From NCBI GenBank assembly GCA_016190155.1, contig JACPRB010000027.1, positions 1-42,660 of the forward strand: a DNA stretch of 42,660 bases, written 5' to 3'. A program made the translations under genes and the position numbers. The stretch comes from Planctomycetota bacterium. Its GTDB lineage: Bacteria > Planctomycetota > MHYJ01 > JACPRB01. Positions 31,174 through 31,461 of this stretch are shown here, in pieces. The notes under the pieces are model-generated. The model was not told the origin of the DNA. It saw nothing but the letters and a program-made list of their open reading frames with translations, and searched no databases. Positions within the stretch are counted from its first letter, which is position 1. Every line of letters begins with the position of its first letter.

Positions 31174-31461
31174 TCAAACGGCGATGACCTGCTTGATCTC
31201 GGGCAGGGCCATCCGCAACTCGTTCTCGATCCCCAACTGGAGCGTCATGGCGCTCGAAGGTCAGCCGCTGCAGGCGCCCTGGAAGCGGATGAAGACCACG
31301 CCCTCCTCCTCGTTGACGTTCACGAGCTCGACATCGCCCCCGTCCATCTGGACGTACGGGCGGACGCGATCGAGGGCTCCGTCCACTTTCCTGTAGAACT
31401 CGGAGCCGCCCCCCGGCTCCACGGGCGCGCGATCGGCGCCGGACTTCACATCATCATTCAT
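31174..31461 (-). CDS. NifU C-terminal-domain-like Fe-S scaffold with an in-frame UGA at the second Cys of CxxC (candidate selenoprotein, 95 aa if read through)
   Basis: ...[35 protein letters not shown]-[UGA, 31261..31263][32 protein letters not shown]. Family motif is CxxCPSS...TL..GIE..L....PEI..V. The ORF track stops at the UGA. Confidence 0.8.
31227..31263 (-). promoter_or_regulatory. Candidate bacterial SECIS-like stem-loop immediately downstream of the in-frame UGA
   Basis: mRNA UGA-CCUUCGAGCGCCAUGACGCUCCAGUUGGGGAUCG can form CG-CUCC-[AGUU]-GGGG-(AU)-CG with the loop starting 23 nt after the UGA, or alternatively GAGCG-[CCAUGA]-CGCUC. Folded by eye only. Confidence 0.3.

Follow-up and report, generated by a model that had tools for sequence, protein, structure and literature searches.

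The nifU-like gene and its neighbours

The window (the whole stretch of 42,660 nucleotides that was analysed, from a planctomycete) carries on its minus strand a short nifU-like gene with an in-frame UGA codon, surrounded by genes related to iron–sulfur and sulfur metabolism. The features are the following.

29825..31150, minus strand: thiC, phosphomethylpyrimidine synthase (Fe–S enzyme); PF01964, 622 bits; NCBIfam ThiC above cut-off; 23 nt downstream of nifU
31174..31461, minus strand: nifU-like (Nfu domain) gene; 95 residues, with the proposed Sec at position 67; PF01106 match
31176..31174, minus strand: terminal stop UGA of nifU, from the translation
31231..31242, minus strand: candidate SECIS apical hairpin CUCC-AGUU-GGGG; loop from nt 26, 4-bp stem; weak in this copy
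31261..31263, minus strand: in-frame UGA, proposed Sec67, second Cys of CxxC; the same codon is UGA in G004, G030, G054 and the loci of the global scan
31270..31272, minus strand: Cys64, first residue of the C-x-x-U motif, from the translation
31551..32732, minus strand: iscS-type cysteine desulfurase, upstream of nifU; the domain starts near residue 303 of the ORF 31551..33635
33711..34544, minus strand: fdhD, formate dehydrogenase accessory sulfurtransferase, from profile matches; upstream of nifU

The nifU gene starts with an ATG at 31461, and 28 codons separate UGA67 from the terminal stop. An earlier note on this DNA had placed the UGA at the second Cys of the CxxC motif of a NifU-like protein, and had described the following codons as matching the C-terminus of the family up to a real stop close to thiC. 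The sequence and its translation are as described: the 28 codons are conserved in the family, and the gap to the thiC ATG (at 31150) is 23 nt. The PF01106 profile covers the whole read-through domain (positions 2–67 of 67, 94 bits, E 5e-27, the curated cut-off being 27 bits), and the NCBIfam matches of the protein are NifU/NfuA; the identity of the domain is secure. The cluster-binding motif reads C-x-x-UGA, and is a CxxC only if Sec is taken as the equivalent of Cys. This gene is the sole match to the NifU C-terminal domain in the whole genome bin, which is a draft of 4.49 Mb in 360 contigs, 88% complete. We consider it very likely, from the comparisons described below, that its product is a selenocysteine-containing Nfu-type Fe–S cluster carrier.

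The gene order in G004, a genome from a different genus of the same family, is iscS–iscA–nifU–thiC, and the pattern iscS–(iscA)–nifU–thiC holds across the window and G004. The A-type gene beside nifU in G004 carries an ordinary Cys. Cys homologues of nifU occupy the same gene order as the Sec form. Further upstream, the order glcD–fdhD–iscS is conserved between the window (31551–37274, minus strand) and G004 (L115, 5630–9558). Elsewhere in the window, two big adjacent and apparently paralogous proteins of about 1400 amino acids each combine GGDEF, AAA_16 and HEAT repeats (13295–17497 and 19047–23213, plus strand), and an ORF at 23473–26634 (minus strand) fuses sigma-70 region 2 with several carboxypeptidase-regulatory-like domains.

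Conservation of the UGA codon in the family, the phylum and beyond

The taxonomic family was represented by five genomes, that of the window and G001, G002, G003 and G004. The earlier note had considered that its proposal would be refuted if all close homologues had Cys with no SECIS and this copy was otherwise decaying. Three of the four relatives (G001, G002 and G003) do have Cys at the position corresponding to UGA67, but the fourth, G004, has UGA at the identical codon; the three Cys-keeping relatives possess most or all of the Sec machinery. Between the window and G004, the part of nifU downstream of the UGA gives dN 0.13 and dS 0.61 (dN/dS about 0.2), similar to or below the upstream part. 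Since dN/dS is this low, the comparison indicates that the frame stays in use past the UGA, and the decay of this copy that the note had envisaged as a contrary outcome is not observed. Internal TGA codons reported in IscU (PF01592) of G001 and G003 turned out, upon translation, to be normal terminal stops, so that a Sec-containing IscU was discarded.

A pattern allowing any TRR codon (TAA, TAG, TGA or TGG) at the NifU Cys was searched in 294 genomes of the phylum. Three genomes match (G000, G030 and G054), all with TGA, and neither TAA nor TAG was found at this site among the 294 genomes. Because this permissive pattern returned only TGA, the UGA is not at the Cys position by chance. G004 is the fourth genome of the phylum with C-x-x-UGA, and was found with a TGA-only pattern. 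In G030 (G030:C380:2999-3190; L130, L134) an Ala replaces the Pro that follows the UGA (GACYG-U-AGAQLTL). In-frame stops in G050 (TGA) and G017 (TAG) are located before the start codon and not at the Cys, and were rejected.

We scanned the GTDB species genomes (about 85,000 species) for the C-x-x-UGA NifU pattern, with a Pro required after the UGA. The scan returned 38 stretches, of which 37 are genuine CxxU-NifU; the remaining one, from a Beijerinckiaceae (L075), is a chance match to the pattern without NifU context. These counts are lower bounds, because the demand for Pro misses forms such as that of G030. The genuine stretches are mostly from Bacillota (33/37), mainly Desulfotomaculia (Desulforamulus, Desulfofundulus, Desulfoscipio, Pelotomaculum, Desulforudis and relatives), and the carriers include cultured type strains; two are deltaproteobacterial (L081 and L085) and two are from planctomycetes (L065, whose sequence is that of G004, and L087, whose sequence is that of G054). 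When 15 Sec-carrying genomes were searched whole, every in-frame stop inside a NifU-domain match was TGA, and none was TAA or TAG. Several of these genomes have the Sec copy alone, and others have in addition either a Cys copy in tandem or another Sec copy. Tandem pairs of one Sec and one Cys nifU occur in Desulfotomaculia at L050, L053, L060, L062, L063, L068, L072, L078 and L079, and Desulforadius tongensis (L066) has two Sec copies.

The UGA of the window aligns with a conserved Cys for which both Cys homologues and other UGA homologues exist. The comparison with related genomes that the earlier note had called for makes a private error very unlikely: the TGA of the window recurs in an independent genus and in 36 more stretches from other lineages.

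A tree built on 79 columns is poorly resolved. It requires about eight Sec/Cys changes, at least five of which are forced by well-supported branches, and the Sec copies of the window and of G004 do not group although they belong to the same family; for these reasons repeated exchange between Sec and Cys in NifU appears likely.

Probable selenocysteine decoding and candidate SECIS hairpins

All four of the genes that the earlier note had proposed to look for (selA, selB, selC and selD) are present in the genome bin of the window, which thus has a complete Sec-decoding set. The tRNA-Sec scores 71 bits and is called tRNA-SeC, anticodon tca, by ARAGORN; SelA is split across the ends of two contigs; SelB scores 360 bits for a cut-off of 242; and SelD has its own in-frame UGA at the Sec site (SCGG-U-ASK). 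This set, including a SelD that itself has a Sec codon, makes it very probable that the organism uses Sec decoding. SelB is above cut-off in 11 of the 12 Sec-NifU carrier genomes tested, the exception being the draft of Desulfocucumis palustris. The SelD of G004 (L044, 1501–2418) contains, besides the Sec UGA, an in-frame TAG (LFRQI-TAG-PRTDKD), which may be an assembly error or a sign of decay.

Positions of SECIS loops are counted here from the U of UGA. In the Bacillota nifU genes, a perfect hairpin, UUGAGC-GGNN-GCUCAA, whose loop starts at nt 41, stands downstream of the UGA in 34/34 matches. It is formed by the codons ATT (Ile), GAG (Glu), CGG (Arg) and CTC (Leu), each of which is invariant in 32/32 Bacillota copies, whereas neighbouring residues that are equally invariant in the protein, such as Leu7, Gly10 and Pro20, are encoded by three to five different codons. 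At the hairpin positions, five Arg codons and five Leu codons occur among nine Cys paralogues from the same genomes, whose protein sequence is very similar there; the tandem Cys paralogues do not retain the hairpin. Invariant synonymous codons are the expected imprint of a bacterial SECIS, and they are the strongest evidence for the Sec-NifU family overall. Hairpins are also found in other lineages: the nifU of G030 has a 10-bp stem with a G early in the loop (synonymous-shuffle P 0.001), and those of L081 and L087 have 8-bp stems with an early loop G (P 0.0045 and 0.057).

Within the family of the window, both the window and G004 nifU have AGUU at nt 26, which comes from the codon pair CAG-TTG; the Cys homologues read CAG-ATG at this place. 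Known selenoproteins in this family have the loops AGUCU (FdhA of G001 and G002) and AGUUG (SelD of G003), the latter located as in nifU. The G004 hairpin has the same loop and position as that of the window, and a stem above synonymous shuffles (P 0.0002–0.005). The 4-bp hairpin of the window is not significant alone: P is 0.32–0.43 with generic rules, and 0.03 if a GU loop is required. The SECIS is thus strong in other lineages, moderate in G004 and weak in the window, where it is the weakest link; the case for the window copy rests on homology, machinery and selection. As to the check for a downstream SECIS that the earlier note had proposed, the AGUU hairpin is present, but unconstrained folding of the region does not outperform shuffled sequences. 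Folding the whole segment after the UGA gives no better result than shuffles in either the window or G004, only the local hairpins being informative, and an Rfam search of the nifU and selD loci returned no SECIS-type match. Another hairpin of the window, GAGCG-CCAUGA-CGCUC, was rejected as a SECIS: its distance from the UGA is short, the first positions of its loop lack a G and G004 has not conserved it.

By this comparative evidence NifU/Nfu is very probably a bacterial selenoprotein family, since UGA occupies the same codon across lineages and, in Bacillota, the hairpin is kept by invariant synonymous codons.

Interpretation of the C-x-x-U motif

The UGA of the window could be a true stop, in a pseudogene or as the result of a private Cys-to-stop mutation or a sequencing error: TGA is one base away from TGC and TGT, the bin is a draft of 88% completeness, and the SECIS of this copy is weak. 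It is very unlikely to be so, given that a second genus and many other lineages, several type strains among them, carry the same TGA, that purifying selection acts past the UGA, that TAA or TAG is never seen at the site and that the genome has the full Sec machinery. That a suppressor or a change of the code makes UGA read as Trp or Cys, rather than Sec, would also account for the conservation of the read-through peptide. This is less credible still: UGA serves as the terminal stop of nifU itself and of the IscU genes in relatives, in agreement with the argument of the earlier note that UGA is a normal stop in other genes, a tRNA of the Sec type with a UCA anticodon is present, several lineages have SECIS hairpins downstream of the UGA and it is specifically Cys that UGA replaces. 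The proposal that the gene encodes a C-x-x-U NifU is therefore supported, none of the contrary results named by the note having been obtained; the role of the selenolate is what we infer.

The protein may be a selenoprotein in which CxxU is not a cluster ligand but a redox, persulfide or selenosulfide motif, for instance reducing sulfane sulfur or selenium from IscS or carrying it, perhaps to SelD or FdhD. The neighbourhood of iscS and fdhD is consistent with such a role, as are the frequency of CxxU as a redox motif among selenoproteins (PMC13188914) and the need of the same genome to deliver Se to a Sec-containing SelD. However, the site is the known cluster-binding CxxC of Nfu, the neighbours include thiC and an A-type carrier, Cys homologues stand in the same gene order and the Sec form showed no persulfide-transfer partner of its own, so that we regard this role as possible but rather unlikely. 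If Sec is incorporated, ligation of the cluster would be the likely function, and a redox or transfer role the doubtful one. By analogy with Nfu proteins, the ligand role of Sec67 is fairly probable; the composite proposal, of a previously unlisted selenoprotein family whose selenolate directly ligates the cluster of a carrier ([4Fe–4S], two Cys and two Sec across the dimer), is held with slightly better than even confidence.

Nfu domains bind a cluster via CxxC at the interface of a homodimer, and A-type carriers can act as donors of this cluster (PMC7939391). In the mechanism that we propose, SelB and tRNA-Sec would decode UGA67 as Sec with the help of the short downstream hairpin, a step backed by the machinery, the conservation and the comparative SECIS data. 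The product would be an ordinary Nfu domain with C-x-x-U in place of C-x-x-C. The Sec-Nfu may then dimerise and hold a [4Fe–4S] cluster at the interface via two Cys and two Sec ligands, take this cluster from the IscS/IscU/A-type carrier system and pass it to clients such as ThiC, encoded next in the operon. ThiC is a known Fe–S enzyme, and the order iscS–iscA–nifU–thiC fits cluster delivery to it. The selenolate would most plausibly tune the lability or the transfer of the cluster, or shield the site from oxidation.

Sec-NifU appears to be a new family within two known kinds, the selenoproteins and the Nfu carriers. Its whole domain, including the DGG motif, the CxxC site and the C-terminal part, aligns with Nfu/NifU C-terminal carriers (PF01106; for example Arabidopsis NFU2, human NFU1, PDB 2z51, 1veh and 2m5o), the closest solved structure by sequence being 2z51. 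It differs from these carriers in having Sec as the second Cys, and the window gene differs from NfuA or full-length NifU in being a single short domain without their partner domains. Like Sec-NifU, the HesB-like selenoprotein (TIGR01911) is small, related to Fe–S assembly, found in anaerobic bacteria and has Sec at a conserved Cys position (PMC1794560), but it has an A-type domain with a UxGP motif (PMC13188914), which the window protein lacks, as it matches PF01106 only. HdrA and VhuD/FrhD also have a CxxU motif and belong to Fe–S electron-transfer complexes (PMC13188914), but they are catalytic electron-transfer enzymes and not cluster carriers. Among the 119 prokaryotic selenoprotein families inventoried in 2026 (PMC13188914, Table 1) there is no entry for NifU/Nfu, and the terms PF01106 and COG0694 do not occur in that inventory; NCBIfam 20.0, which has many seleno-specific models for other selenoproteins, has none that matches Sec-NifU proteins. 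Full-text searches of published papers outside subscription journals found no report of a NifU selenoprotein.

Fe–S cluster carriers have housekeeping functions, and if one of them contains selenium, the supply of Se would become a determinant of the maturation of Fe–S enzymes in anaerobes. If the proposal is true, several sulfate-reducing Bacillota and the planctomycete of the window would have the Sec form as their only detected Nfu, which would tie selenium supply to general Fe–S protein maturation. Cultured sulfate-reducing Desulfotomaculia commonly carry Sec-NifU, and ordinary annotation would cut the gene short at the UGA there. Tandem Cys and Sec paralogues within a single genome lend themselves to a direct comparison of cluster binding, transfer rate and oxygen sensitivity.
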